From: Nanobdellota archaeon
Lineage (GTDB): Archaea; Nanobdellota; Nanobdellia; Pacearchaeales; GW2011-AR1
Assembly: GCA_022703705.1 (NCBI GenBank)
Contig: JAKLDD010000005.1
Coordinates: 1-35,849, forward strand
Length of the DNA stretch: 35,849 nucleotides
Direction of reading: 5' to 3'
Below, piece by piece: positions 16,773 to 28,290 of this stretch. Each line of letters begins with the position of its first letter. Position 1 is the first letter of the stretch. The notes below the pieces were generated by a model. It was not told the DNA's origin and searched no databases. It saw nothing but the letters and a program-made list of their open reading frames with translations. A program made the position numbers and the translations under genes.

Positions 16773-18575
16773 TTACAGCACAATCTCAAAATCTCCAAAT
16801 TCTTTTTTCAAAACTTCAAAAATTTTTGGATTAAATTCAACATCTTTTTTGTTTTTTTGAGATTCAACAGACTGAGAAACTTCTTCCAGATTTGAACTCT
16901 CTACTTTTGTTGTTATTTTAAAAACTGCATTGTTTTTAAATAAAAATGATTTCCCGTCGGAGTTTAATAATTCTGCAACTTCCTCTTTAAATTTTAATTT
17001 CATTTTCCCTCTTTCCATAAATATTAAATCACATCTCTGAGAAAATTCAATTAAATCGTTTATTAAGGTAGAAGCTTCTTTCCTTGCATTGTCAACTTTA
17101 TGAGCATCTAATTTACCTTTCTTAAATTCTGTTCTTGCGGTTATTATATTTTTTAGGATTCTTAAATGCTGTTGAGTCATTTTGCCTTTCTTAACTAAGT
17201 TTTTTTCAAATTCAAAAACTAATTGCTGTTGAGATTTCTTTCCAAAAATAGCATTCAAAAGATTAATTGTGTCAGAATAAATCTTTTCAATTGTCTTTTC
17301 CTGAGCTTTCTTATCTATTTGTATTCTCAATTCTTTTAATCTCTTCAAAAATTCTTCAGTATCTTTAAGAAGCTTGTCAATTTCAGTTCCAGAAATTTCT
17401 TTTACCTTTTCATGTTCATAATCTCTCCATGTATTGATGATTTTCTCCATAAAATCAACATATTTCTTTTCAATCATCTTTGTATCTACAAATTCCTTCT
17501 TGAAATCTCTAACAAGTTCCTTCTTTGCATTCGGTGGAGGGCACCCATTCAACATAAGCAAAGCCTGTGCAGGAGTTGTCACCCCCCAGAATATATTAAC
17601 AAAAATATCTGAAAGCAAGGTCCTTTTGCTTCTTGGGATTATACCATCCCCCATACTCATAAACATATCAATTGCTTCTGGAGAAGGTTTCAATTTACCC
17701 ATTTTAAGAAGAGCTTTCCAAGGCATGAATGTACCTCTATCGTAAATTGGAACACCATCTCTTATGAATGTAAACATAACAGGGTGAGCATCTTTAACAG
17801 CTTCCCAAAAATCAGTAAGAAGATAAATTTGGGGTTCAAGCTTATTATGAACCCCTGCAAGAGCGCTAGCTTCTCCAACATACTGATAAATTATACCTCT
17901 TAATCTCTCTTTAAGTTCAAGCCTTGGCATTCTCTTAACATCTGTATCATTAATTATAACAAATACATCTACATCAGAATCTTTTGTTGCATCTCCTCTT
18001 ATTAGGCTTCCACCTAAAACATATGAAACAACATATTTCTCAAATTTCTGCAATACAAGAGATTTGTGTATTTCAGATACCCTCATAGCACCCAAAATTC
18101 CTTTATCATGAAGGGGAAAAGACATTGCCAGTGCAGCATATAATTCAAATTTTTGATCATTACAAATTTCCCAAATCTCAGAAGGAATCTTTATATGAAC
18201 CCAAACTTCTTGTTTTGTTTTTTCAATTTGTTCAATAATCTGTTTTTTCATCTCAGGAATCTTCTTTTCTTTATCTTCAGGCACAATTAAAAAAATATGA
18301 ATCTTTTTTTGAAGTTTTTCAAATTTTTCCTTAGGAATATCATCTCCAATTTCTTCTTCCAAAAAGTCTTTTATTGATTGAGGGGGAAGTATACTAATTG
18401 ATTGAATAAAAGGATATTTTTTAATGATAAAACCTTTTAATTTTTCAAGCTCTTTTTTTACTTTTTCCATCTTTTTAGCATCTTTTTCAGTGTTTTCTGG
18501 AACTACGTTATTTTTTACAGAATAATTTTTATCCAAATTCATTTCAGGGATATTTGGCATATTGTCTTGAGTCAT
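16773..18575 (-). CDS. 600-aa nucleotidyltransferase: degenerate copy, active copy, HEPN-like domain
   Basis: Paralogue of the nucleotidyltransferase at 12383-13249. Seen: an active-looking domain (about 183-300) with LGGS (Gly189-Ser190) and SDVDVF (Asp201, Asp203); a helical domain (about 300-420) aligned to the paralogue, containing WRDYEH; then about 180 extra helical residues. Residues about 55-175 line up with the active domain: KIHIFLIVPED where DVDVFVIIND stands, a KKIPE / KRMPR pair after it, WVHIKIPSEIWE against QIYLLTDFWE, and PLHDKG against PIYDRG. Here the two catalytic Asp are Lys and His and the GS loop is lost, so this first copy is inferred to be an inactivated duplicate. Substrate unknown. 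It lies on the opposite strand from its paralogue, 3.5 kb away. Confidence 0.78.
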   Translation of the reverse strand: MTQDNMPNIPEMNLDKNYSVKNNVVPENTEKDAKKMEKVKKELEKLKGFIIKKYPFIQSISILPPQSIKDFLEEEIGDDIPKEKFEKLQKKIHIFLIVPEDKEKKIPEMKKQIIEQIEKTKQEVWVHIKIPSEIWEICNDQKFELYAALAMSFPLHDKGILGAMRVSEIHKSLVLQKFEKYVVSYVLGGSLIRGDATKDSDVDVFVIINDTDVKRMPRLELKERLRGIIYQYVGEASALAGVHNKLEPQIYLLTDFWEAVKDAHPVMFTFIRDGVPIYDRGTFMPWKALLKMGKLKPSPEAIDMFMSMGDGIIPRSKRTLLSDIFVNIFWGVTTPAQALLMLNGCPPPNAKKELVRDFKKEFVDTKMIEKKYVDFMEKIINTWRDYEHEKVKEISGTEIDKLLKDTEEFLKRLKELRIQIDKKAQEKTIEKIYSDTINLLNAIFGKKSQQQLVFEFEKNLVKKGKMTQQHLRILKNIITARTEFKKGKLDAHKVDNARKEASTLINDLIEFSQRCDLIFMERGKMKLKFKEEVAELLNSDGKSFLFKNNAVFKITTKVESSNLEEVSQSVESQKNKKDVEFNPKIFEVLKKEFGDFEIVL

Positions 18576-18638
18576 ATATTAAAAAATAATTTATTTACTT
18601 TTAAATGTTTGGATAATTTATAATTATTAAAAAGCAAT

Positions 18639-21062
18639 TTATTTAACTTTAAAATAACTTTTTTGGGAGCTTACAAGTCCAGAATTGTCTGTGCAATAAA
18701 ATGTTACAAAATGGCATCCTTTTGAAATTAAATAATTTTTAGAAGTCCAGTAATCTCCGTAAATATTTGTCATTGTTACATTTTTATTAAAGTCCAGAGA
18801 ATAAACACAAGATTTAATTCCAGAATCATCAATTGCAGTTACACTAAATAGAACTGGTCTTCTATATATCCAATTATTTAATGGAGAGTTAATTTTTAAC
18901 ATTGGAGGAACAGTATCAACTACTTTTAATGTAAAAATATCATCTATCTTATTTTGCTGAGTTGTAAAGTCTACAGTGTGAATCTCCGGGGTATATCCTG
19001 TCTTGCTTGCACTTATTGAATAATTTGAATAATATGTTTTTGTTCCCCCAAGATTAACATAATCAAGAATTTCTTGTTTTGGAATAAATCCAGAAGAATC
19101 TGTTAATGCACTAAATTGCAAATTGTTAAAGGTATCATAAGCAGAAACCTCTGCTTCTGAAAGAGGGTTGTTAGAACTGTCTTTAACTTCTGCTTGATAA
19201 TACCATTTTCTTATAAGTTCATTTCCTGCACTTACTTCTTCTGTATCATAAGAGCAATTTAAGAAAGTGTTGTTTGTACTATAAACTGAACTTCCATTTA
19301 GATAAACTCCTGTTGTTCCTTGAATATTACAATCTTTGAAAAGATTATTGCTTGATCTTTCAAGTAAAACCCCATAATTTGCACCTATTGCTATAGAATC
19401 AATTAAAGTGTTATTTGAAGAACCCAAAAGATAAATCCCCTTGCTGTCTGCACTTATTCCTGTGTTACCTATTAAAACCTGATTTGAAGAATAATCTAAT
19501 AGAATACCTACATTAAGTCCTTTTTCACATATTCCAAGATTGTTTATTAAATTGCTATTTTGAGATCTATAAACAGTAATTCCTCCATAAGGATTGCCAG
19601 ATGCTTTACTATTGGTGGTTATTCCTGTATTGTTTATCAAAGTATTATTTGGAGAATCGTAAATTCTAATCCCCGCAATATATCCGCCCACCCCATCTGG
19701 ATCGTAAGATTTTCCTGTATTATTTACCAACATGGTATTTGGAGAATAATAAGTACCAATTCCACTTTGTAAAGCCGATATTCCAACATTATTTGTAAGA
19801 GTATTATCTGGTGATTCAATTATGGTAATTCCTCCTCTCCCCTCAACAAAATTATTGGTTAAAATATTATTTGAAGATTTTTCAACACGAAGTGCCTCAC
19901 TTAGTGCGCGATAATTATTCACTATCTTATTTGAACTTAATTCATTAAAGTTTGCTGAGTTATAAAGATAAATTCCTGCACTTTTATTGGTATTTATAAA
20001 ATTATTAGACACTTTTGAATTATCAGCTGAATCTAAGAAAATTCCAGTTCGAGTGTATTGTGATGAATCAAAATTTCCATCTAAAATATTACAATTCTTT
20101 ATTGTTGTACTCTCTTGATTAGTATATACCCCATATGTATTTGCATTTCCACTAGTTGAATATATTATAGTTTTATTATTGCAATTCAAAGTAACATTTT
20201 CTGCTGTAATATTAAAGCATGTATCTGTTGAAATTACATCTTTTGTTAAAACATATGTCTTTCCAGATTCAGAAAGAGTTCCGCAGGATGAAATAGGTTT
20301 TTCAAGAGATTTAAAAACATAGTCCCAATCATTATCATAAGCACAGAAAGCACCAGTTGTTAATGCAGCCCACTCAGAATTATCTATTACTTCTGGGATT
20401 TCATCTCCATTTCTATAATGAGTTACAGCTAAATTTTGCCTTAACCAAATTTGTGTTCCAATTTGGACAGTGTCATAAACATTTCCGTCATAATCCACAA
20501 CTACTTCCCCTTCTGCCCATTCATCTGAACTATCACGAATACAACGAACACTGCTTCCAGCTTTTTTCCTATTTGCACCAACCCATATATCTCCTGATGA
20601 ATATGAAGATAAATATATTTCAAAACAATCATATGAACGATTTTGTTCTGGGTATACCTCTGAAAACGAAGTAGAAGATATAAAATCTGCTCTTTCTTTT
20701 AATTCAATAAAAATTCCAGTATAAGTTCTCATCCCCCCACCCAATGCAGAAAAACCTGTTTCATCAGTTGCACCTTCGTTAGGAACCCAATGATCAGTAC
20801 CCACTTCCTTTATCTTATAATCCATATAAAAATAACTAACTGGTTCAAGATATTCGTGGAAAGTTTGAAATTCAGTATATGAAGGCACGTGCCAACCTTC
20901 AGGACACAAACCTCTTGAGTCATCAACAGTATACCAATTGTAAAGTAAACCATATTCAACATCACTTGAAGTATCAGATGCAGAAACAAAATTCATTAAG
21001 AAAAATAGGGATAAAAAAGCTGTCAAAATTAAAGACAAAATAATTTTATTTTTTTTTCTCAT
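18639..21062 (-). CDS. Secreted beta-helix surface protein with FISUMP-like module
   Basis: An 807-aa exported protein. Seen: Sec signal peptide (about 1-28, ending VSASD); residues 37-177 match the C-terminal half of the Fibrobacter succinogenes major paralogous (FISUMP) domain (YGLLYNWYTVDD, CPEGWHVPS, SVRCIRD); residues about 184-247 match its N-terminal half (DYDGNVYDTVQIGTQIWLRQN, ALTTGAFCAYDND), so the order is reversed. Then comes a NosD/PbH1-type right-handed beta-helix of short Asn-rich repeats (about 270-590, recurrent NNTLINN), and two C-terminal beta domains (RKWYYQAEVKDSSNNPLSEAEV; an Ig-like domain starting PPMLKINSP). Beta-helices usually bind or cleave polysaccharide. FISUMP is otherwise best known from Bacteroidetes and Fibrobacter, so transfer is likely. 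An AACCTTAAAAA promoter lies about 25 nt upstream. Confidence 0.8.
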   Translation of the reverse strand: MRKKNKIILSLILTAFLSLFFLMNFVSASDTSSDVEYGLLYNWYTVDDSRGLCPEGWHVPSYTEFQTFHEYLEPVSYFYMDYKIKEVGTDHWVPNEGATDETGFSALGGGMRTYTGIFIELKERADFISSTSFSEVYPEQNRSYDCFEIYLSSYSSGDIWVGANRKKAGSSVRCIRDSSDEWAEGEVVVDYDGNVYDTVQIGTQIWLRQNLAVTHYRNGDEIPEVIDNSEWAALTTGAFCAYDNDWDYVFKSLEKPISSCGTLSESGKTYVLTKDVISTDTCFNITAENVTLNCNNKTIIYSTSGNANTYGVYTNQESTTIKNCNILDGNFDSSQYTRTGIFLDSADNSKVSNNFINTNKSAGIYLYNSANFNELSSNKIVNNYRALSEALRVEKSSNNILTNNFVEGRGGITIIESPDNTLTNNVGISALQSGIGTYYSPNTMLVNNTGKSYDPDGVGGYIAGIRIYDSPNNTLINNTGITTNSKASGNPYGGITVYRSQNSNLINNLGICEKGLNVGILLDYSSNQVLIGNTGISADSKGIYLLGSSNNTLIDSIAIGANYGVLLERSSNNLFKDCNIQGTTGVYLNGSSVYSTNNTFLNCSYDTEEVSAGNELIRKWYYQAEVKDSSNNPLSEAEVSAYDTFNNLQFSALTDSSGFIPKQEILDYVNLGGTKTYYSNYSISASKTGYTPEIHTVDFTTQQNKIDDIFTLKVVDTVPPMLKINSPLNNWIYRRPVLFSVTAIDDSGIKSCVYSLDFNKNVTMTNIYGDYWTSKNYLISKGCHFVTFYCTDNSGLVSSQKSYFKVK

Positions 21063-21155
21063 GCAGTTTGATAATTCATTTTCTTTTTAAGGTTATATTT
21101 TGTGAGATGTATATTTTGCATTTTAATAGATTGGATTGTTATAAATGCTTCTCCC

Positions 21156-21176
21156 CTCACAGAATCGAGGAGTGAG
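21156..21176. other. Short hairpin between mazF and the secreted protein gene
   Basis: CTCAC / GTGAG stem with an 11-nt loop, partly extended by TTCTC / GAGAA, in the 135-nt gap downstream of the mazF stop. It may end the toxin-antitoxin transcript. The rest of the gap is AT-rich and holds the promoter of the secreted protein. Confidence 0.35.
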
Positions 21177-21197
21177 AACCCTGCTCTTAGAAAGATT

Positions 21198-21542
21198 TTA
21201 ATCCAAAGCTAAACTAATCTTTAATGCCATATCTACTTTATTCATAATAAAATTGTCAATAAATCCTATTTTTTTAACAATCCTTCTTTTATCAATTGTT
21301 CTTATTTGATTTAGTAAAATTGTTGAATTTAATTTTAATTTAGAATCTTCCTTATTAATTATTACATTTGTAGGATATTCTTTTGTGTAAACCTTGGATG
21401 TAATTGGTGCTACAATAATTGTTGGAGAATATTTGTTAAGAGTATCATTCTGGATTATTAAAACGGGTCTGACACCTCCTTGTTCTGAACCCTTAATAGG
21501 TTTTAAATTGGCAATTACAATTTCACCCCTTATAAATTCCAT
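21198..21542 (-). CDS. mazF: MazF/PemK-family toxin (mRNA endoribonuclease)
   Basis: A 114-aa protein of the MazF family, ribosome-independent endoribonucleases that cut mRNA at short sequence motifs. Seen: RGEIVIANLKPIKGSEQGGVRPVLIIQND, the family's opening strands with the GxEQ and RPVLI elements; then TIIVAPITSK (catalytic Thr/Ser strand) and LLNQIRTIDKRRI. The length is usual. It overlaps the upstream antitoxin gene by 13 nt, so the pair is co-translated. It resides beside a disrupted tRNA-Gly gene, a common setting for accessory modules. Confidence 0.9.
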   Translation of the reverse strand: MEFIRGEIVIANLKPIKGSEQGGVRPVLIIQNDTLNKYSPTIIVAPITSKVYTKEYPTNVIINKEDSKLKLNSTILLNQIRTIDKRRIVKKIGFIDNFIMNKVDMALKISLALD

Positions 21543-21775
21543 TTTTCGTTTTTATCTAAACCATCCATTAATGTCCTTTCCCATTCTTGAGTAATATTTA
21601 ATATATCCCCATACATTTCTTTGCAGCCCTCTATTAATAACTGTTCTTCTTCTCTTCTGCATTTTTCCGCAGTCTTCATCAGATTCAAGATAACCTCTTC
21701 ATAAGTCTCTTTATTAGATTTCATCCTATCTAGTGCATTTTTTACATTTTCGTTAAGTTGAATTGTTGTTACCAT
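21530..21775 (-). CDS. Antitoxin of the MazF pair, VapB-like (DUF7557-type) N-terminus
   Basis: An 81-aa partner of the MazF toxin. Seen: N-terminal VTTIQLNENVKNALDRMKSNKETYEEVI, the ribbon-helix-helix-like pattern of archaeal VapB-type antitoxins, usually found with VapC. A C-terminal helical tail (about residues 40-81, with Trp and acidic residues: TQEWERTLMDGL) resembles the peptide by which MazE-type antitoxins block MazF. The RHH end should bind the operator at 21780-21796. The combination of VapB-like DNA-binding part and MazF partner suggests module swapping (inference). Confidence 0.75.
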   Translation of the reverse strand: MVTTIQLNENVKNALDRMKSNKETYEEVILNLMKTAEKCRREEEQLLIEGCKEMYGDILNITQEWERTLMDGLDKNEKWNL

Positions 21776-21779
21776 AATT

Positions 21780-21810
21780 CTATAGATTAACTATAGTTTA
21801 TATATATTTT
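21780..21810 (-). promoter_or_regulatory. Toxin-antitoxin promoter and operator
   Basis: CTATAG, 5-nt spacer, CTATAG (21780-21796) sits directly upstream of the antitoxin ATG at 21775, and a TATA box (TATATATAAA in minus-strand reading) covers about 21799-21808. The symmetric repeat lies between TATA and the start site, where a bound antitoxin would block transcription. The binding claim is inference from position and symmetry. Confidence 0.6.
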
Positions 21811-21918
21811 GTTTATTATCTTACTTTTTATAAGAATGCGCTCCCGGGGAGTCGGACCCGGCCCACCTCGTCTTTGCTGTTTTCTTCCTTCTTTGTTTTT
21901 TAAGGAGGTTGATTGTCA

Positions 21919-21983
21919 AGGAACCTTGGTTCCTCACAAGTCTCTTAAGGGAGAGAGTGTGAGGAAGAACCGTTAGGTTCTTC
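21919..21983 (-). other. Three hairpins in the tRNA-Gly intron
   Basis: In plus coordinates: GAAGAACC/GGTTCTTC with 4-nt loop (21964-21983, 8 bp); CCTCACA/TGTGAGG enclosing TCTCT/AGAGA (21932-21964); AGGAAC/GTTCCT with 4-nt loop (21919-21934). The last two share three bases and cannot both form fully. Such dense pairing in an AT-rich genome suggests the intron is a structured RNA or a remnant of one. Confidence 0.55.
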
Positions 21984-22002
21984 TCATTGGCAACGAGATA
22001 TT

Positions 22003-22013
22003 CTACCGATAAA
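22003..22013. repeat. 11-bp direct repeat, copy 1 (tRNA-Gly D-arm)
   Basis: CTACCGATAAA (TTTATCGGTAG on the minus strand) is identical to bases 24101-24111, 2098 bp away in the same orientation. Recombination between the copies would rejoin a full-length tRNA-Gly gene. Confidence 0.6.
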
Positions 22014-22066
22014 TTATAAAGAAGTATAATATATCCGGAAATGAGAAAACTAGGAAGAAAGGGAGG

Positions 22067-22693
22067 TTATTTTTTCTTCTTGTTTATTACCAATATTTCT
22101 GGTACTGCAGCATAAAAAGCTATCAAAAAGCTATCAAAATCCCAAACATATTCTTGCCCATCGCTTGGATTAAGCACTTTAAACCCTTTGTTAGTATATC
22201 CTACGACAATAACTTTATGATTCATGTTTATTCCTGCAGAAGATCTTTTACTGATAAATGCAGGCTTAACCTCAACTAAGAAAAATTTTTCTTTATCAAT
22301 TATTTTCTTTAATTTTTTAACATTAAGATTATCAGAAACAATTTTACCTCCTAATTTTAAGAACTGCAAGGCCTGATTAACATAATATTTACCAAAACCA
22401 AAATAACTTTTAGACTTTAGTTCAAGAGATTTCTTTAAATTATCTGGATGTTTATTGTTATTCAGAATAATTGGGTTATATCCAAGATACTGAACATCTA
22501 AACCAAATTTGAGGGCAGTAACCCCTAAACTTAGAATGGGGTTTCTTAGTTCTTCTCCTTTTCCAAAAGACTGGTTTTTCTTCCAAATATCTTTTTCAGA
22601 ATAATTATTCCCATAATAGTTAATGATACTCCTTAAACAAGCTATTCCACATGATTTATTCGTCTCTTGTTTTAAGATTTTAATTCTTTTCAT
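22067..22693 (-). CDS. Peptidase C39-like (papain-fold) protein
   Basis: A 208-aa soluble protein of the C39-like cysteine peptidase fold. Seen: ILKQETNKSCGIACLRSIINYYG at the N-terminus, giving oxyanion Gln9 and nucleophile Cys15; NMNHKVIVVGY with His159; NPSDG with Asp178. The triad is complete, so the enzyme is probably active. There is no signal peptide or transporter fusion, unlike bacteriocin-processing C39 domains. Its ATG overlaps the stop of the GNAT gene upstream (ATGA). GNAT and C39 domains also occur fused in that order in some proteobacterial proteins, which supports joint function. It lies inside the segment bounded by the tRNA-Gly fragments. Confidence 0.78.
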   Translation of the reverse strand: MKRIKILKQETNKSCGIACLRSIINYYGNNYSEKDIWKKNQSFGKGEELRNPILSLGVTALKFGLDVQYLGYNPIILNNNKHPDNLKKSLELKSKSYFGFGKYYVNQALQFLKLGGKIVSDNLNVKKLKKIIDKEKFFLVEVKPAFISKRSSAGINMNHKVIVVGYTNKGFKVLNPSDGQEYVWDFDSFLIAFYAAVPEILVINKKKK

Positions 22694-23145
22694 CTTAACC
22701 TCTTCCTTATCATAAATCCTTCTTCATTAGAAGAATATCCTAATTTATGATAGAAATTAAGTACTTTTTTGTTTTTTACAAAAACAAAGCTTTGTATTGA
22801 TTTGCAACCTTTCTTTTTAAGGTAATCTTCAAGTGCTTTCATAAGTTCTTTCCCATAACCCATAGAACGATAATCCTTAGAAACAATCAACTCATGAATT
22901 ATTCCCCCTCTTCCTATCATTGATTCTCTGTATTCTCCACTAACAACTCCTCCAAGCCTTCCATCAATATCAAGAACAAAAACAACTGCTCGTGGTTTCT
23001 TCATAAGTAAATTAAAGAAATCTTTTCTCTCTTTAACTGAATCAACTTTGTGTCTTTTATCCAGTGCATTTTCATATCTATCATATTCTCCAAATAATTC
23101 AACAACCCCTTCAATGTCTTTTTTTGTAGCTCTGCGAATTTTCAT
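22690..23145 (-). CDS. GNAT family N-acetyltransferase
   Basis: A 151-aa cytosolic acetyl-CoA-dependent transferase. Seen: N-terminal KIRRATKKDIEGVVELF, IIHELIVSKDYRSMGYGKELMKALEDYL (acetyl-CoA loop R-x-x-G-x-G as RSMGYG), and the C-terminal VLNFYHKLGY typical of GNAT enzymes. It is the first gene of a two-gene unit with the C39-like protein, coupled by a 4-nt overlap. The acceptor substrate is unknown; by context it could be a protein N-terminus or peptide handled by the C39 partner (inference). Confidence 0.85.
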   Translation of the reverse strand: MKIRRATKKDIEGVVELFGEYDRYENALDKRHKVDSVKERKDFFNLLMKKPRAVVFVLDIDGRLGGVVSGEYRESMIGRGGIIHELIVSKDYRSMGYGKELMKALEDYLKKKGCKSIQSFVFVKNKKVLNFYHKLGYSSNEEGFMIRKRLR

Positions 23146-23270
23146 ATATTTTTAATAATAAAACTAACTTTTTAATCTTTTATAAGGCTTTTTTATTAAT
23201 TAGATTTATCTAATATACAACAAACGTATTTTTTAGATATTTTTTTAAAGATACTTTTCTTTTTTATTAT

Positions 23271-23963
23271 ATGAAGAAGATAACACAACTTGAGAAGAAT
23301 TTTAAGAAATTTAAAAGATTAACAAAAGAAGAGTATTTTATTGCAAAGGAAATAAAAAACAAAGTAAAAATTAGAGAAAAAGACACTATTTTAGATGTAG
23401 GATGTGCAGATGGTAAACTCTCAAGATCTTTGGTAAAAGATTCCAGGAATATAACTTTTTTGGATGTTAATGAATTTGACTTTTCTCCACAAGAAGAATT
23501 TATTCATTCATCATTTGAAAAAGCACGTATGAATAAGAAATATGATTATATTCTAACTTCACATGTTTGGGGGCATTTTTATAGAAATAAAAGTTTTAAT
23601 TTCTGTTTTAATAAAGCTCTTAATTTGCTTAAAGAAAATGGAAAATTAATAGCTATTCACAATTCAAATAAAGATTTTACTGGAAGGCTAATAGAATTTT
23701 CAAAAGGTATTTTCAAAAAGATGGAATTTGATGTTTTTTTGGAAAAATATCTAGAAAAAGCAGACTATAAAGAAGATTATTTTAATGTAAAATTAAAAGC
23801 AAAAACCTACAGAGAATTAGCAGAATTAATTCAAGTATTAATAATAGTTCCAGATAAATTATATTATAAAAATATTGAAAAAATTATAAAATTTCTAAAA
23901 GATAATTTAAAAAAACCAGAATTTAATATAAATCAAAGAATTATAGTTATAAATAAAAATTGA
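23271..23963 (+). CDS. Class I SAM-dependent methyltransferase
   Basis: A 230-aa protein. Seen: SAM-binding motif I TILDVGCADGKLSRSL (about residues 39-54), an acidic strand end (ITFLDVNEF), a motif YDYILTSHVWGHF where family members have the post-II strand, and LKENGKLIAIHNS, the usual motif after it. The C-terminal about 90 residues are helical and Lys-rich. The substrate is unknown. A TATA-like TTTTTTTAAAGAT about 25 nt upstream suggests a leaderless mRNA. It lies inside the segment bounded by the tRNA-Gly fragments, opposite in strand to the GNAT-C39 pair. Confidence 0.8.
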   Translation: MKKITQLEKNFKKFKRLTKEEYFIAKEIKNKVKIREKDTILDVGCADGKLSRSLVKDSRNITFLDVNEFDFSPQEEFIHSSFEKARMNKKYDYILTSHVWGHFYRNKSFNFCFNKALNLLKENGKLIAIHNSNKDFTGRLIEFSKGIFKKMEFDVFLEKYLEKADYKEDYFNVKLKAKTYRELAELIQVLIIVPDKLYYKNIEKIIKFLKDNLKKPEFNINQRIIVINKN

Positions 23964-23988
23964 GTGTTTATTTTTAATTATTATAAAA

Positions 23989-24059
23989 TGCGCGGAGCGG
24001 GAATCGGACCCGCACCACCTCGTTGGCAACGAGATATTCTGCCACTAAACTATCCACGC
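23989..24059 (-). tRNA. tRNA-Gly (GCC), intron-less
   Basis: The minus strand gives a full cloverleaf of 71 nt: acceptor GCGTGGA/TCCGCGC (one G:T pair), anticodon stem TCTCG/CGAGG around loop TTGCCAA (anticodon GCC), T-arm GCGGG/CCCGC, discriminator A, no encoded CCA. Its anticodon arm and D-arm 3' side are identical to the intron-containing tRNA-Gly at 21837-22023, but acceptor and T-stem differ, so the two are paralogues and not a recent copy. Confidence 0.96.
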
Positions 24060-24086
24060 ATGACTTTTTTGCCTTATAACCCGTAT

Positions 24087-24114
24087 TAGTTTATCGTTCG
24101 CTACCGATAAACTA
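24087..24114. repeat. 10-bp inverted repeat next to the tRNA-Gly 5' fragment
   Basis: TAGTTTATCG (24087-24096) and CGATAAACTA (24105-24114) form a perfect stem with an 8-nt loop. One arm is the D-arm of the tRNA fragment at 24101-24121. It could be a recombinase-type core, or the 3' extension of a tRNA piece that folds back on it. Confidence 0.65.
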
Positions 24115-24121
24115 GGAACGC
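24101..24121 (-). pseudogene. 5' fragment of tRNA-Gly (nt 1-21)
   Basis: The minus strand reads GCGTTCC, TA, GTTTATCGGTAG. It aligns to nt 1-21 of the intact tRNA-Gly (15 of 21 identical). Its acceptor GCGTTCC pairs at all seven positions (one G:T) with GGAGCGC, the orphan 3' acceptor strand at 21838-21844. Its last 11 nt duplicate bases 22003-22013. A TATA-like TTTAAATATA at 24151-24160 lies 30-39 nt upstream, so it may still be transcribed. Confidence 0.65.
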
Positions 24122-24178
24122 TTAAATCTCTAATCAAAGATTAATTAAGATATATTTAAAATTTTATATTTTCTTAAA

Positions 24179-24376
24179 TTACATTCCAAGATACTTAAGT
24201 AGTTCAAAAACTAAAAATGCAGGCCAAACGAGTGCTTTTAAAAACCCAAGAATTCCCATCCAAAAACTCTCTGCATATAAAATATAATAAATAGCTGCAC
24301 CAATAAAACCCAAACCATAAACAGCACCTGCAGAACCACAACCTATATGATTGTCTTGATTAATTCTTTTTTTCAT
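24179..24376 (-). CDS. Small conserved membrane protein
   Basis: A 65-aa protein with two membrane helices. Seen: GCGSAGAVYGLGFIGAAIYYI followed by a short loop and FWMGILGFLKALVWPAFLVFELL. I recognise this as a widespread small membrane-protein family in bacteria and archaea with the YGLGFIGA and VWPA elements, without known function. The ATG at 24376 gives a short charged N-terminus. Its stop is just upstream of the tRNA-Gly 5' fragment on the same strand. Confidence 0.75.
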   Translation of the reverse strand: MKKRINQDNHIGCGSAGAVYGLGFIGAAIYYILYAESFWMGILGFLKALVWPAFLVFELLKYLGM

Positions 24377-24417
24377 ATCTAATAAAATAAATTCTATTTT
24401 AAATATTTTTCTAAAAA

Positions 24418-24801
24418 TTATTTAATATCATAATATTTTTTATTATGAACACAAAACACTTTACCTCTCTTAAAATATTTCTTTTCCTGCATATCAATGA
24501 ATTTTTTGACACCTTTTTTATGAATATTTTCCAGATTATCAATCATGCTCATATTATATTTTGTCCTGTATCGCTTATCCAAATCTCTTAACCTTTTACA
24601 AGGATATTTATTGCATTTATTAGAACAAAACTTAAGTTTGTTTTTCTTTAATATTTCACAGTTTTTTATTATACATCTAACACGACTAATTGATTTGTCT
24701 TCCCACATAACCCTACATCCAGGACATTTGTTTTTCTCTCTCAGATAACCAAGGCAAATCGAACAATTCATACCGCAGGGGGCAATAAGTTTTGAATTCA
24801 T
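24418..24801 (-). CDS. DUF3795 cysteine-rich protein
   Basis: A 127-aa soluble protein. Seen: N-terminal LIAPCGMNCSICLGY, then CPGCR, CIIKNCEI, FCSNKCNKYPCKRL: paired cysteines matching DUF3795, a family proposed to bind zinc or an Fe-S cluster and of unknown function. The C-terminal part is basic and helical. It lies 8 nt after the zinc-ribbon gene on the same strand and may be cotranscribed with it and the 164-aa gene upstream. Confidence 0.8.
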   Translation of the reverse strand: MNSKLIAPCGMNCSICLGYLREKNKCPGCRVMWEDKSISRVRCIIKNCEILKKNKLKFCSNKCNKYPCKRLRDLDKRYRTKYNMSMIDNLENIHKKGVKKFIDMQEKKYFKRGKVFCVHNKKYYDIK

Positions 24802-24809
24802 TTTATAAA

Positions 24810-25049
24810 TTATTTTATCTTTTCTTTAGCATCTAAAAGCTTTATTTTCTTTCTAATATAATCTTTATCTATAAATTCCGGCCTTCTTTCTATTTCCTTA
24901 GAAAATTTCTCAGGATTTTCAGAATAATGTTTTTTTATTGTATTTTCTGAAAGTAATTTTAATTTGAATTTACAAGAGTCACAAATAATATAACCATGAA
25001 ATAAATTACCTTTTTTACCGCAATTAAAACATAAATCTTTTTCATTCAT
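24810..25049 (-). CDS. 79-aa zinc-ribbon protein
   Basis: Seen: CFNCGKKG and, 10 residues later, CDSCKFK, a four-cysteine zinc ribbon at the N-terminus, then a charged helical tail. The frame is open from a TTG at 25070, but the ATG at 25049 starts 4 nt after the upstream stop and places the ribbon at the usual distance from the start, so it is preferred. Role unknown; small zinc ribbons of this kind bind nucleic acids or proteins. Confidence 0.65.
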   Translation of the reverse strand: MNEKDLCFNCGKKGNLFHGYIICDSCKFKLKLLSENTIKKHYSENPEKFSKEIERRPEFIDKDYIRKKIKLLDAKEKIK

Positions 25050-25053
25050 TTTA

Positions 25054-25548
25054 TCATTCAACCTTTGCAAACAAAATCATGTAATTATTTTCAAACTTCT
25101 TAGCACATTTCGGACAATATGCATAATGAATGTAATAATCAGAATCTTTTGAAATTTTATGTCCTTCTTTCTCTAAATAATTATTCATATCTTTTACAAA
25201 TTTAGGTATTGAATTATATCCTCCATCATAAACTCTAGCAATAAAAGTTCCTGAAAGCTTAACATTATTTGCTCCATTAACTTTTCCTGTTACAGAAATA
25301 TAAATATGAGATTTGAATGCACTTGGATCTCTAAACAAGACTAACACTTCATCTTTTTTAGAAGACATTTTCTTTGAAGTTCCTATCAATTTCATCATCT
25401 TAGTTATTTTCTTTCCAATCATTGGTGGAAAAGGAATATGAAAAAATGTAGGTATTGTTTCCTTAATAAAGAGCTTATCTTTCCAGACAAAAGTCTTTTT
25501 GTCCCATTTTTTAGTATTAAATTTTGGGCAACATTCTTCTTTTTTCAT
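25054..25548 (-). CDS. Uncharacterised 'hydrolase'-labelled family protein, GyrI-like fold likely
   Basis: A 164-aa cytosolic protein. Seen: CCPKFNTKKWDKKTFVWKDKLF at the start, IPTFFHIPFPPMIG, a SGTFIARVYDGGYNSIPKFV segment, and the terminal YCPKCAKKF. I recognise the pattern (CCPKF, KLF(I/V)K, a conserved SGTF, CPKCAK) from a bacterial and archaeal family often labelled simply 'hydrolase' and thought to have a GyrI-like small-molecule-binding fold. Function is not established. It heads a three-gene minus-strand run with the zinc-ribbon and DUF3795 proteins, all cysteine-rich. Confidence 0.65.
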   Translation of the reverse strand: MKKEECCPKFNTKKWDKKTFVWKDKLFIKETIPTFFHIPFPPMIGKKITKMMKLIGTSKKMSSKKDEVLVLFRDPSAFKSHIYISVTGKVNGANNVKLSGTFIARVYDGGYNSIPKFVKDMNNYLEKEGHKISKDSDYYIHYAYCPKCAKKFENNYMILFAKVE

Positions 25549-25592
25549 GAAAATTAATAGAAATTATTATTTATAATTCTATCTTAAAGAGA

Positions 25593-25904
25593 TTATTTTT
25601 TCTTTATAAAATAACTTTGATTTCTAATAATCTTCCCCGCCTCATTATAGAAAACCTTATGACTTCCGATACCGGCTACCATATTATTTTTATCATATCT
25701 TACAGGATTTCCCTTAAATTGAATTATCCTGCCTAAGCTATCATATTCAACAATGTATCCGTCCATCTCTTCAAGCTTAACAGTAGTATCTTGAATATTC
25801 AAATATTCTACATCTTTAATAATAGAATTCTTATTATTACATGAAACTAATCCTGCTAAACCTACAATTAAGATACCTTCCAAAAACATTTTTTTTGAAA
25901 TCAT
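25593..25904 (-). CDS. Small putative lipoprotein with RHS/YD-like C-terminus
   Basis: A 103-aa exported protein. Seen: signal peptide (MISKKMFLEG, hydrophobic core) with lipobox LVSC at about residues 19-22, so lipid attachment at Cys22 is likely; then an EYDSLGRIIQF and VFYNEAGKIIRN pair that resembles YD/RHS repeat strands of secreted bacterial proteins. It is unlike the surrounding genes in style and may be acquired from bacteria. Its promoter shares an identical 17-nt core with the next upstream gene. Confidence 0.55.
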   Translation of the reverse strand: MISKKMFLEGILIVGLAGLVSCNNKNSIIKDVEYLNIQDTTVKLEEMDGYIVEYDSLGRIIQFKGNPVRYDKNNMVAGIGSHKVFYNEAGKIIRNQSYFIKKK

Positions 25905-25927
25905 AATAAAAACTACTGCAAGACTAA

Positions 25928-25944
25928 TTTTTAAGGATTTATAT
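25928..25944 (-). promoter_or_regulatory. Promoter of the lipoprotein gene (17-nt shared core)
   Basis: The minus strand reads ATATAAATCCTTAAAAA; the TATA-like part ends 24 nt before the ATG at 25904. The identical 17-mer occurs at 26485-26501 before the next gene, with the same spacing. Confidence 0.6.
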
Positions 25945-26048
25945 TAAAAAAGTGCATTATGAGCCTAAGAAGGAATCAAGACCTTCTGAATACTTGCCTG
26001 TAAAGAATATTAATATAAAAATTGAGAATTGTAAAATTACACTCTTAT

Positions 26049-26462
26049 TTAGAATAATTTAGTCAAATCCCCATTTAGGACTTTTGGTTTCATCGCCTCA
26101 ATTTCATCTTTATAATTAAGATTGGGTATAGGATTGTATAAAAATAGTTTTTTATTTAGGATATGAGCAAAACCCATCTCTAAAAAAGTGTTTCCCCCAA
26201 TATAATTATCAATCCCCCCCTTAGAACCATTATATATCAATACACCATCATGCTCTTTTATTACATCAAAATATCCCTGAATTAAATCGTAACTTACCTT
26301 ATTATGTGCTGATTCTAAGTGCATATTATCTCTTGAATTTAAAGTAGCATAGTGTTCAGTAAATTCTGGTAAAGTAACCTCATGTCCTAACTCGGTTAAT
26401 CTCTTTTTTAATTCTACCATCTCTGGTGAGAAAGTCATACTTGAGCAAACTGCTATTTTCAT
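26049..26462 (-). CDS. Nucleoside 2-deoxyribosyltransferase-like protein
   Basis: A 137-aa cytosolic protein. Seen: KIAVCSSMTFSPEM, ELGHEVTLPEFTE, HDGVLIYNGSKGGIDNYIGGNTFLEMGFAHILNKKLFL: the Rossmann-like fold with the GGNTFLEMGFA helix used in nucleoside 2-deoxyribosyltransferase-like enzymes and relatives that handle nucleotide sugars or base exchange. Catalytic Glu would be in that helix. The frame is open from a TTG at 26471, but the ATG at 26462 matches the family start and the promoter spacing (26485-26501). The substrate is not known. Confidence 0.75.
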   Translation of the reverse strand: MKIAVCSSMTFSPEMVELKKRLTELGHEVTLPEFTEHYATLNSRDNMHLESAHNKVSYDLIQGYFDVIKEHDGVLIYNGSKGGIDNYIGGNTFLEMGFAHILNKKLFLYNPIPNLNYKDEIEAMKPKVLNGDLTKLF

Positions 26463-26484
26463 AAAATTCAAGCATTAATAATAC

Positions 26485-26501
26485 TTTTTAAGGATTTATA
26501 T
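26485..26501 (-). promoter_or_regulatory. Promoter of the deoxyribosyltransferase-like gene (17-nt shared core)
   Basis: Same 17-mer as at 25928-25944, with its TATA-like part 23-28 nt before the ATG at 26462. The AATCC BRE followed by TTAAA also precedes the gene at 31098-31493. Confidence 0.6.
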
Positions 26502-26515
26502 AAAAAAATGTTAAA

Positions 26516-26586
26516 TGGACGCTGGAGGAATCGGACCTCCGCCATCTCGGTGTAAACGAGAGGGTCTACCATTAGCCTAAGCGTCC
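26516..26586 (-). tRNA. tRNA-Val (TAC)
   Basis: The minus strand gives a cloverleaf: acceptor GGACGCT/AGCGTCC (perfect), anticodon stem TCTCG/CGAGA around TTTACAC (anticodon TAC, valine), T-arm GGAGG/CCTCC with loop TCCGATT, discriminator A, no CCA encoded. There is no intron. Confidence 0.95.
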
Positions 26587-26700
26587 GTATAATTAAAGAA
26601 TATCGATGGTTTATAAAAGTTATTTTTTATAAAATTAAAGAAGATATTTAAACGCTACTAATCAAAATATAATTACTAAAAAGATCTAAGAGAAAATAAA

Positions 26701-27408
26701 ATGGAAGAAAAATTTCAATGTCGAAAATGTGGAGACTGTTGCAGATTTTTTGGTGAAACTGATAATTGGTTACCCCTATTTGAATGGGAAAAAGATAAAA
26801 TGAAAGAATTGGCAGAACAGAAAAAAATTTCTTTCGAGGCTAAACCAATAGAATTAATATTTGACAAAAAATCCAATTTAGCTTTTTTTATTAATTATGG
26901 GCTGAAAGGTCCTTGTCCATTTCTTATAAATAATAAATGTTCTATTTACGAAGATCGCCCTCTAATCTGTAAAGCATTTCCAATGGGAAAAAATCCCTAT
27001 TTTGTTGAAGAGATTATGAATATAAATCTTCCAAATTGCAAATCTTTTACAAAAAACGAATGGAGTTTAACTTTTAAAGAAATTTTGGGAGATGAATCAA
27101 TCCCAATAACAAGACAAGATATGGCAAAGAAATACAAAAAATTGTTTGGAGAAGAATGTTTTTTTAATTCTTTCATCATAGGACAAATAAAAATTCGGAT
27201 CAGCAATATAAAAGAAGAATTAATTCAGAGTAAAAAGATTAAAGCTAGAAAAATAAATAAATTTGATTATGAAAAGTACAACGCAGTTCCCTTTTTTGAA
27301 TTCTTAAGATTAAAGGGGTTATTAAATCAAGAACAAAAGTTTAATCTGATTAATTCATTGACAGACTATAATCAAATTAAAAATATTATTTTTTCGCAAG
27401 GTTTTTAA
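26701..27408 (+). CDS. YkgJ-family cysteine cluster protein
   Basis: A 235-aa cytosolic protein. Seen: CRKCGDCC (Cys7, Cys10, Cys13, Cys14), then CPFLINNKCSIYEDRPLICKAFP, the family pattern CPFL-x-C-x-IYxxRPxxC. The eight cysteines are expected to hold Fe-S or zinc. Function is unknown for the family. The following C-terminal part (about 130 residues) is helical and lineage-specific. A GATATTTAAAC element at about 26642 could be its promoter. It precedes an EamA transporter on the same strand by 30 nt. Confidence 0.85.
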   Translation: MEEKFQCRKCGDCCRFFGETDNWLPLFEWEKDKMKELAEQKKISFEAKPIELIFDKKSNLAFFINYGLKGPCPFLINNKCSIYEDRPLICKAFPMGKNPYFVEEIMNINLPNCKSFTKNEWSLTFKEILGDESIPITRQDMAKKYKKLFGEECFFNSFIIGQIKIRISNIKEELIQSKKIKARKINKFDYEKYNAVPFFEFLRLKGLLNQEQKFNLINSLTDYNQIKNIIFSQGF

Positions 27409-27438
27409 GAGTTTCTAACTTCATAAAAAACAAGAGAG

Positions 27439-28290
27439 ATGATATATTTACCAATTTTAGGAGCAATTGCCCTTGCGGGGGGAACTATACTTGAAAGGCA
27501 TATTCTAAAAAGAAAAGAGATGAATATAAAAAAATATCAAACACTGGAATTTCTGGCAATTTTAATAATAATGCTTCCTTTGCTTTATTTTTTTTGGAAA
27601 GTAGACAGCCAGGCTTTAGAATTGAAAAATATTCTTATCTTTATTGGAGTAATAATCTGCTCAGTGATTGCAAATCTTTTCACATTCTATTCAATGAAAG
27701 GAGAAAAGGTAAACAATTTAGAACCTGCGAAGATGCTTGAACCATTATTTACAATATTACTTGCAATTATTTTTAGTTTTTTCTTTCAAGGAGTTTATGA
27801 AAGCAATACAAAAGTAATTATTCCTGCATTAATAGCGGGATTAACTTTAATCTTAACGCACATAAAAAAAGAACACTTGAATTTTAATAAATATTTTACA
27901 GCAGCAATAATTGGAAGTTTCTTTTTTGCTTTTGAAATAATTATCTCAAATTTAATTTTAAATCTTTACTCTCCAGTAACTTTCTATTTCTTAAGGTGCC
28001 TTGGGATTTTAATTATAAGTTTAATACTCTTTCATCCAAAATTATCCAAAATAGATAAAAAATTAAAAATAAATTTAATTTTAGTAGGAATAATTTGGGT
28101 TGTTTATAGGGTTGTTGCCTATTATGGCTATCTTAAAATTGGAATAATTTCTACAACATTAATATTAATGCTTGGAGCAATATTAACTTATGTTTTTGCA
28201 AAAATATTCCTTAAGGAAAAAATAAGCCTCAGAAACATAATTGCTTCAATTATTATATTAGCGTGTGTTATCTATGTTATGTTTGCTTAA
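27439..28290 (+). CDS. EamA/DMT-family transporter
   Basis: A 283-aa membrane protein with about ten hydrophobic helices in two halves. Seen: the inner repeat ending in LEPLFTILLAIIFSFF and the C-terminal one with TTLILMLGAILTYVFAKIFLKEKIS, the EamA signature (small polar residues, then LKEK before the last helix). Members export amino acids, metabolites or nucleotide sugars; the substrate is not readable here. It follows the YkgJ gene by 30 nt with an AGAGAGAT possible ribosome-binding site, so the two may be one operon. Confidence 0.85.
   Translation: MIYLPILGAIALAGGTILERHILKRKEMNIKKYQTLEFLAILIIMLPLLYFFWKVDSQALELKNILIFIGVIICSVIANLFTFYSMKGEKVNNLEPAKMLEPLFTILLAIIFSFFFQGVYESNTKVIIPALIAGLTLILTHIKKEHLNFNKYFTAAIIGSFFFAFEIIISNLILNLYSPVTFYFLRCLGILIISLILFHPKLSKIDKKLKINLILVGIIWVVYRVVAYYGYLKIGIISTTLILMLGAILTYVFAKIFLKEKISLRNIIASIIILACVIYVMFA

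Follow-up and report, generated by a model that had tools for sequence, protein, structure and literature searches.

Two pieces of a tRNA-Gly(GCC) gene on either side of a complete one

The insertion of mobile DNA is the usual proposal for how archaeal tRNA genes come to be broken or split or to carry introns, a question that is still open. The question is raised by one locus of contig JAKLDD010000005.1 (Nanobdellota archaeon, assembly GCA_022703705.1), within a stretch of 35,849 nucleotides (nt), hereafter the window, in which two pieces of a tRNA-Gly(GCC) gene are separated by DNA carrying a complete tRNA-Gly(GCC) gene. The source is one metagenome-assembled genome (MAG), 87.5% complete, with 40 contigs and 622 kb. 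An earlier reading made from the letters alone (the sequence-only reading) had proposed either the insertion of an element with a replacement tRNA or the trans-splicing of the pieces. Our analysis makes it likely that the native tRNA-Gly(GCC) was disrupted in its D-arm and replaced by a divergent complete tRNA-Gly, the native body being now a pseudogene. The case shows the ancestral gene as well as its broken pieces and the rescuing tRNA.

All tRNA features of the locus are on the minus strand. The 5′ piece (24101-24121), GCGTTCCTAGTTTATCGGTAG, consists of nt 1-21 of the native tRNA-Gly(GCC) and is identical at 21/21 positions to the continuous gene of the same-genus genome G001. The 3′ piece (22013-21837) extends from nt 11 to the 3′ end and includes an intron; the first exon (nt 11 to 37, 21988-22013), defined by alignment to the native gene and by a bulge-helix-bulge (BHB) test, begins with the 11-bp direct repeat TTTATCGGTAG, which is present at 24111-24101 and 22013-22003 with a spacing of 2098 bp. 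The same repeat coordinates were thus recovered as in the sequence-only reading, and all seven acceptor pairs that it had seen between the pieces form, the acceptor strand GGAGCGC lying in the second exon (21837-21871). Its 3′ piece of 21837-22023 holds as a piece, but the end at 22023 includes leader bases and the true end is 22013. The 116-nt intron (21872-21987), which it had called canonical, is located at 37/38 and shows the canonical archaeal BHB, with 3-nt bulges around a 4-bp helix (4/5/2 pairs; 4/4 central pairs, TTGC/GCAA, and 5/5 outer pairs).

We then looked for the uninterrupted gene in close relatives and found it in G001 and G002. As G001 has a single continuous, intron-less tRNA-Gly(GCC) that is 70/71 identical to the rejoined sequence, the two pieces come from one ancestral gene, in line with the earlier proposal that they rejoin into one tRNA-Gly. 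The continuous gene of G002 is 93% identical to the rejoined sequence and likewise has no intron, and neither gene has an upstream 5′ fragment. These comparisons show that a continuous tRNA-Gly(GCC) is the ancestral state of the locus. A parallel case was found in G032, in which a complete tRNA-Gly(GCC) is followed, about 1 kb downstream and on the same strand, by a decayed Gly-like body without a 5′ end. This decayed body (L040 2500-2620, G032:C10) has a hairpin-like insertion in its T-arm region.

The complete, intron-less tRNA-Gly(GCC) noted earlier between the pieces (23988-24060) was detected both by ARAGORN and by Rfam (62.3 bits). It starts 41 nt downstream of the 5′ fragment and is the sole complete GCC-Gly gene found in the assembly. 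It matches the native gene at 80% identity and no relative found at more than 86%, and so did not arise by a recent duplication of the native gene.

Promoters, the T-stem and the question of trans-splicing

To assess which copy works, we scored promoters with a weight matrix built from 98 tRNA upstream regions of the same Pacearchaeota family, the scores being consensus-based only. A TATA-like box, TTTAAATA (24153-24160), located 39 nt upstream of the 5′ piece, scores 8.35, which is above the 75th percentile. The best score upstream of the intact gene is 2.18 (below the 10th percentile), its box being weak and misplaced, and the 3′ piece has no TATA-like box at the usual position (best score -0.21, below the 5th percentile). 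These three scores suggest that the intact tRNA-Gly probably relies on the native promoter and that its leader includes the 5′ fragment.

In the displaced body, a mismatch at nt 64 leaves position 50:64 of the T-stem unpaired (4/5 pairs), while this stem is fully paired in all 30 other tRNA-Gly(GCC) sequences compared (29 from relatives and the window's own intact gene). This mismatch is the only difference from the G001 gene across the rejoined 71 nt. Because of the T-stem mismatch and the missing promoter, the displaced native body is probably a pseudogene.

The same observations bear on the possibility that a two- or three-piece tRNA is trans-spliced from the separate pieces. Such genes exist in other archaea (PMC3218864), the seven acceptor pairs do form between the pieces and the BHB of the canonical intron is intact. 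However, no complete BHB is formed at the D-arm junction between the 5′ tail and the 3′ leader in any of 12 registers, and only the 5′ piece has a promoter, whereas split tRNA genes are expected to have one on each piece. As the T-stem of the 3′ piece is also broken, and a complete tRNA with the same anticodon meets the decoding need, trans-splicing is very improbable and this alternative of the sequence-only reading was abandoned.

Upstream 5′-fragment leaders in the family

We next examined whether 5′ fragments occur upstream of other tRNA genes. In four genomes of the family, 18 of the 119 tRNA genes are preceded by a copy of their own 5′ end, compared with 1/85 in two genomes outside the family, where the single case is a neighbouring tRNA. 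In the window's genome, six complete tRNA genes have their own 5′ end copied upstream, namely Ile-GAU (called “Thr” by ARAGORN on account of an intron), Asn, Tyr, Arg-UCU, Lys-CUU and Glu-UUC; the copies span nt 1 to 15-27, with two tandem copies at Arg and Tyr. The order at these other leader loci is promoter, 5′ fragment, hairpin spacer (33-45 nt in most) and complete tRNA. The D-arm strand recurs in the spacer as an imperfect inverted copy, by which the fragment and spacer mostly fold into hairpins. At the family loci scanned, every fragment with the 5′ end lies upstream of the tRNA and every one with the 3′ end downstream, and none is on the other strand.

In seven leader units, the covariation score of the named structure exceeds those of all 500 shuffles and of the slid controls, for a hand-chosen structure and few related sequences; at Thr-UGU, G001 and G002 have GTGAT/ATCAC versus GCGAT/ATCGC. 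With a covariance model of the upstream leader (R1), convincing leaders were found only inside this Pacearchaeota family among the 186 genomes scanned, under strict filters by which weak cases are missed. Several weak R1 matches proved to be plain tRNA genes and were discarded as leaders.

At the Gly locus, a 10-bp inverted copy of the D-arm strand directly follows the 5′ piece, and the fragment's D-arm strand and this copy form the hairpin TAGTTTATCG-GTAGCGAA-CGATAAACTA (24087-24114), supported by sequence, fold and complementarity. The fold of the 5′ fragment with the spacer has a z of -2.7, and the fragment-spacer complementarity score is 20, compared with at most 14 when spacers of other leader units are used. 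The 5′ piece with its 41-nt spacer and inverted copy fits the leader pattern, apart from its match to the displaced body and not to the tRNA behind it.

No precedent for upstream 5′-fragment hairpins was found in the open-access literature, which is no proof of novelty; the family-wide hairpins may be something new.

Some further arrangements of tRNA ends were noted. In the Leu tRNA genes of the window's genome (L031 1500-1790, G000:C34; also L011, L016 and L023), extra copies of the gene's own 3′ end start 41-82 nt downstream; Leu-UAA has two such copies, and the spacers are alike between different Leu genes. Before a tRNA-Glu(CUC) gene in L084 (2780-3030, G049:C7), two 5′ fragments follow one another, and behind each lie hairpin modules and inverted copies of the 5′ end of the tRNA. 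A partial tRNA-Val match is present in L118.

The inserted segment and its origin

The insert contains three protein genes, for which the Pfam matches agree with the earlier assignments: a C39-like peptidase gene (22067-22693, minus strand; PF03412, 1.6e-9), a GNAT acetyltransferase gene (22690-23145, minus strand; PF00583, 2.2e-18; 58% amino acid (aa) match in G016) and a class I methyltransferase-like gene (23271-23963, plus strand; Methyltransf_23, 5.7e-8). A close C39 homologue (81% aa) occurs in one same-genus genome, G002, at an unrelated site, where pcm-like and SMC genes flank it and the other cargo is absent. Just upstream of the 3′ piece, a 10-nt exact match to native nt 4-13, TTCCTAGTTT (22047-22056, minus strand), could be a decayed remnant of the native gene (Markov p about 0.0007), although this match was found post hoc and is tentative.

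Judged as an integrative element, the segment has an uninterrupted target in G001 and G002 and an 11-bp direct repeat at both ends, but the target tRNA is reconstituted at neither end: the body lacks nt 1-10 and a different tRNA substitutes. Two ways of insertion are those that we infer, either one integration with an 11-bp core or the duplication of a leader followed by the insertion of the replacement. In the former case, a mobile element would have integrated site-specifically at the D-arm core with a recombinase acting in trans. The direct repeat is exact and in register with the ancestral gene, an inverted repeat surrounds the core, the genome has one recombinase gene, and the event would be comparable to known integration in the 5′ half of tRNA genes. 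However, the element itself has no recombinase, no sister copy of it was found among the relatives searched, and the shared block stops in the middle of the 8-bp spacer of the inverted repeat, for which reason the core-like TTTATCG-8-CGATAAA was rejected as a tyrosine-recombinase core. Moreover, since the 5′ piece exemplifies the family-wide upstream-fragment architecture, the 11-bp repeat is weaker evidence for a one-step integration, which we consider possible and no better than that.

In the latter case, a D-arm micro-duplication would first have produced a leader, as at Ile, Asn, Tyr and Arg, and the foreign tRNA-Gly and three genes would later have been inserted between the leader and the native gene, the 11-bp overlap being incidental. 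The 41-nt spacer and inverted copy match the leader architecture of other tRNA genes, and the possible nt 4-13 remnant is found upstream of the 3′ piece. On the other hand, two events are required, the Gly genes of G001 and G002 have no upstream fragment and the remnant is a post hoc match, so that a two-step origin, too, is put forward only tentatively.

Disruption and replacement weighed

Whichever way the segment entered, disruption of the D-arm plus replacement is well supported, because of the orthologs in G001 and G002, the broken T-stem, the promoter scores, the lack of a BHB at the D-arm, the divergent replacement tRNA, the shared leader architecture, the parallel in G032 and published precedents. 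Of the sequence-only reading, the insertion of a replacement tRNA is supported by the ancestral gene in relatives, the divergent tRNA and the patchy cargo. According to the disruption-and-replacement scheme, the native single-copy tRNA-Gly(GCC) would have been broken in the D-arm, with no change in the position of its promoter and nt 1-21; the body (from nt 11 to the end, intron included) would have been displaced by 2.1 kb as a pseudogene. The intervening DNA would have delivered the divergent complete tRNA-Gly(GCC) 41 nt behind the 5′ fragment, and this tRNA, probably made from the native promoter as a longer, 5′-trimmed precursor with a hairpin leader, would supply glycine decoding. Transcription through the fragment and 5′ trimming are steps that we infer, as are the way in which the segment entered and the sequence of events, with the time of intron gain.

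Several points weigh against this scheme. The 5′ fragment matches the displaced body and not the complete tRNA that follows it, whereas other leaders match their own tRNA. Pfam detects no integrase or transposase among the genes of the insert, as had been noted earlier, and the assembly has a single tyrosine recombinase gene (PF00589), located on contig C12. The three cargo genes were not found together in any relative searched, and the insertion itself does not explain the intron. Finally, the evidence comes from a single assembled MAG without reads. This last point would also favour an assembly artefact, that is, a mis-join in this 40-contig MAG; assemblies can break at tRNA genes, and contigs C5 and C11 of G002 both end in the Gly gene. 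However, the synteny on both flanks is the family's own (a 600-aa gene, L35Ae and L10e on one side; the gene at 27439, a radical SAM gene and the thermosome on the other) and an overlap of 11 bp is short for a mis-join, which makes an artefact improbable.

The intron and a dispersed palindromic module

The intron of the displaced body, which is absent in G001 and G002, contains GAGGAACCAAGGTTCCTTGACAATCAACCTCCTT (21890-21937, minus strand), a dispersed tRNA-associated palindromic module of about 35 nt. It scores 65.1 bits with a covariance model of this module (R2), the sequence itself being in the training set. In relatives, at least seven other types of tRNA have near-identical copies in their introns; module-bearing introns include those of tRNA-Leu(UAA) of the window's genome and of Gly(GCC), Gly(CCC), Ala, Arg, Glu and Thr tRNAs of relatives, and a further copy lies at the stop codon of an open reading frame (L129). 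When 84,980 species were scanned for the exact module pattern, it was found only in MAGs labelled Pacearchaeota or Nanoarchaeota, a result on which the assignment of the family to the Pacearchaeota is based; the module-bearing contig JACOWL010000006.1 appears to be the same as G018:C13, which belongs to the same family as the window. In G049, 7 of the 15 module copies are inside or at most 4 nt from a tRNA gene (binomial p about 1e-10; 2/15 had helped to build the model). At gathering thresholds, Rfam gave only tRNAs and one large-subunit rRNA, and no other known RNA family.

A likeness of the module to the 3′ end of 16S rRNA was considered and set aside, as it is confined to a short tail. In G049, the module recurrently stands 1-4 nt before tRNA genes, on the strand opposite to theirs (C8:3409-3459, C10:7095-7139, C12:655-706, C35:22071-22120). 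In L094 (3120-3230, G057:C81), a copy lies in a region that resembles RNase P RNA by eye, without an Rfam call at the gathering threshold, downstream of 23S rRNA. In L096 (1-250, G057:C5), a 59-bp duplication (upstream region and nt 1-19) precedes tRNA-Gly(GCC), and its copies are separated by the palindromic module.

A broader and more speculative proposal is that a process specific to this lineage would bring small DNA modules with hairpins into tRNA genes, at the D-loop, the anticodon loop or the 3′ end, and that the Gly locus could be an uncollapsed intermediate of it. The modules would survive only where something preserves the tRNA: a 5′ or a 3′ end in duplicate, BHB splicing or a spare tRNA. 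The 5′-fragment hairpin leaders that result would then be an undescribed class of tRNA-associated element, with a possible role in the folding or processing of pre-tRNA. The family offers dozens more tRNA genes with end fragments and hairpin modules, which makes the sequence of events testable.

Comparison with known systems

The closest precedent is the tRNA-Thr(GGU) locus of Caldiarchaeum subterraneum, where the gene is disrupted by inserted DNA (Sugahara 2012, PMC3293823). As at the Gly locus, a 5′ fragment and the rest of the gene lie on the same strand (about 1.8 kb apart there), the pieces overlap over a short stretch (nt 25-27 there), the gene is uninterrupted in a relative and an intron was gained. 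However, Caldiarchaeum keeps a complete, functional-looking gene downstream and its insert carries a putative recombinase, whereas at the Gly locus only a truncated body is left downstream and the insert contains a different complete tRNA. The 5′ half of archaeal tRNA genes also serves as attB for pTN3-like integrases (reviewed in PMC8371274); unlike these elements, the segment described here has no integrase gene and only an 11-bp repeat, and another tRNA replaces the target behind the native promoter. In split, trans-spliced archaeal tRNAs, among them those of Desulfurococcales with nearby split genes (PMC3218864), the pieces of one tRNA likewise lie apart in the genome, but here there is no BHB at the break, the 3′ piece is promoterless and an intact copy is present. 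Partial tRNA genes next to complete ones, as here, are known among prokaryotic partial tRNA genes listed as canonical genes (PMC9897764), although here the 5′ fragments are systematic, upstream and usually hairpin-closed by an inverted copy.

Neighbourhood of the locus

Two observations concern the surroundings of the locus. The Val/Gly tRNA cassette of the window (16773-28290) has the opposite orientation to that in family members such as G054 and G046, when the 600-aa nucleotidyltransferase-like gene and the 27439-28290 gene on its flanks are taken as the reference. A MazF/PemK-like toxin gene with a short antitoxin-like partner (21198-21775) lies immediately downstream of the displaced body.
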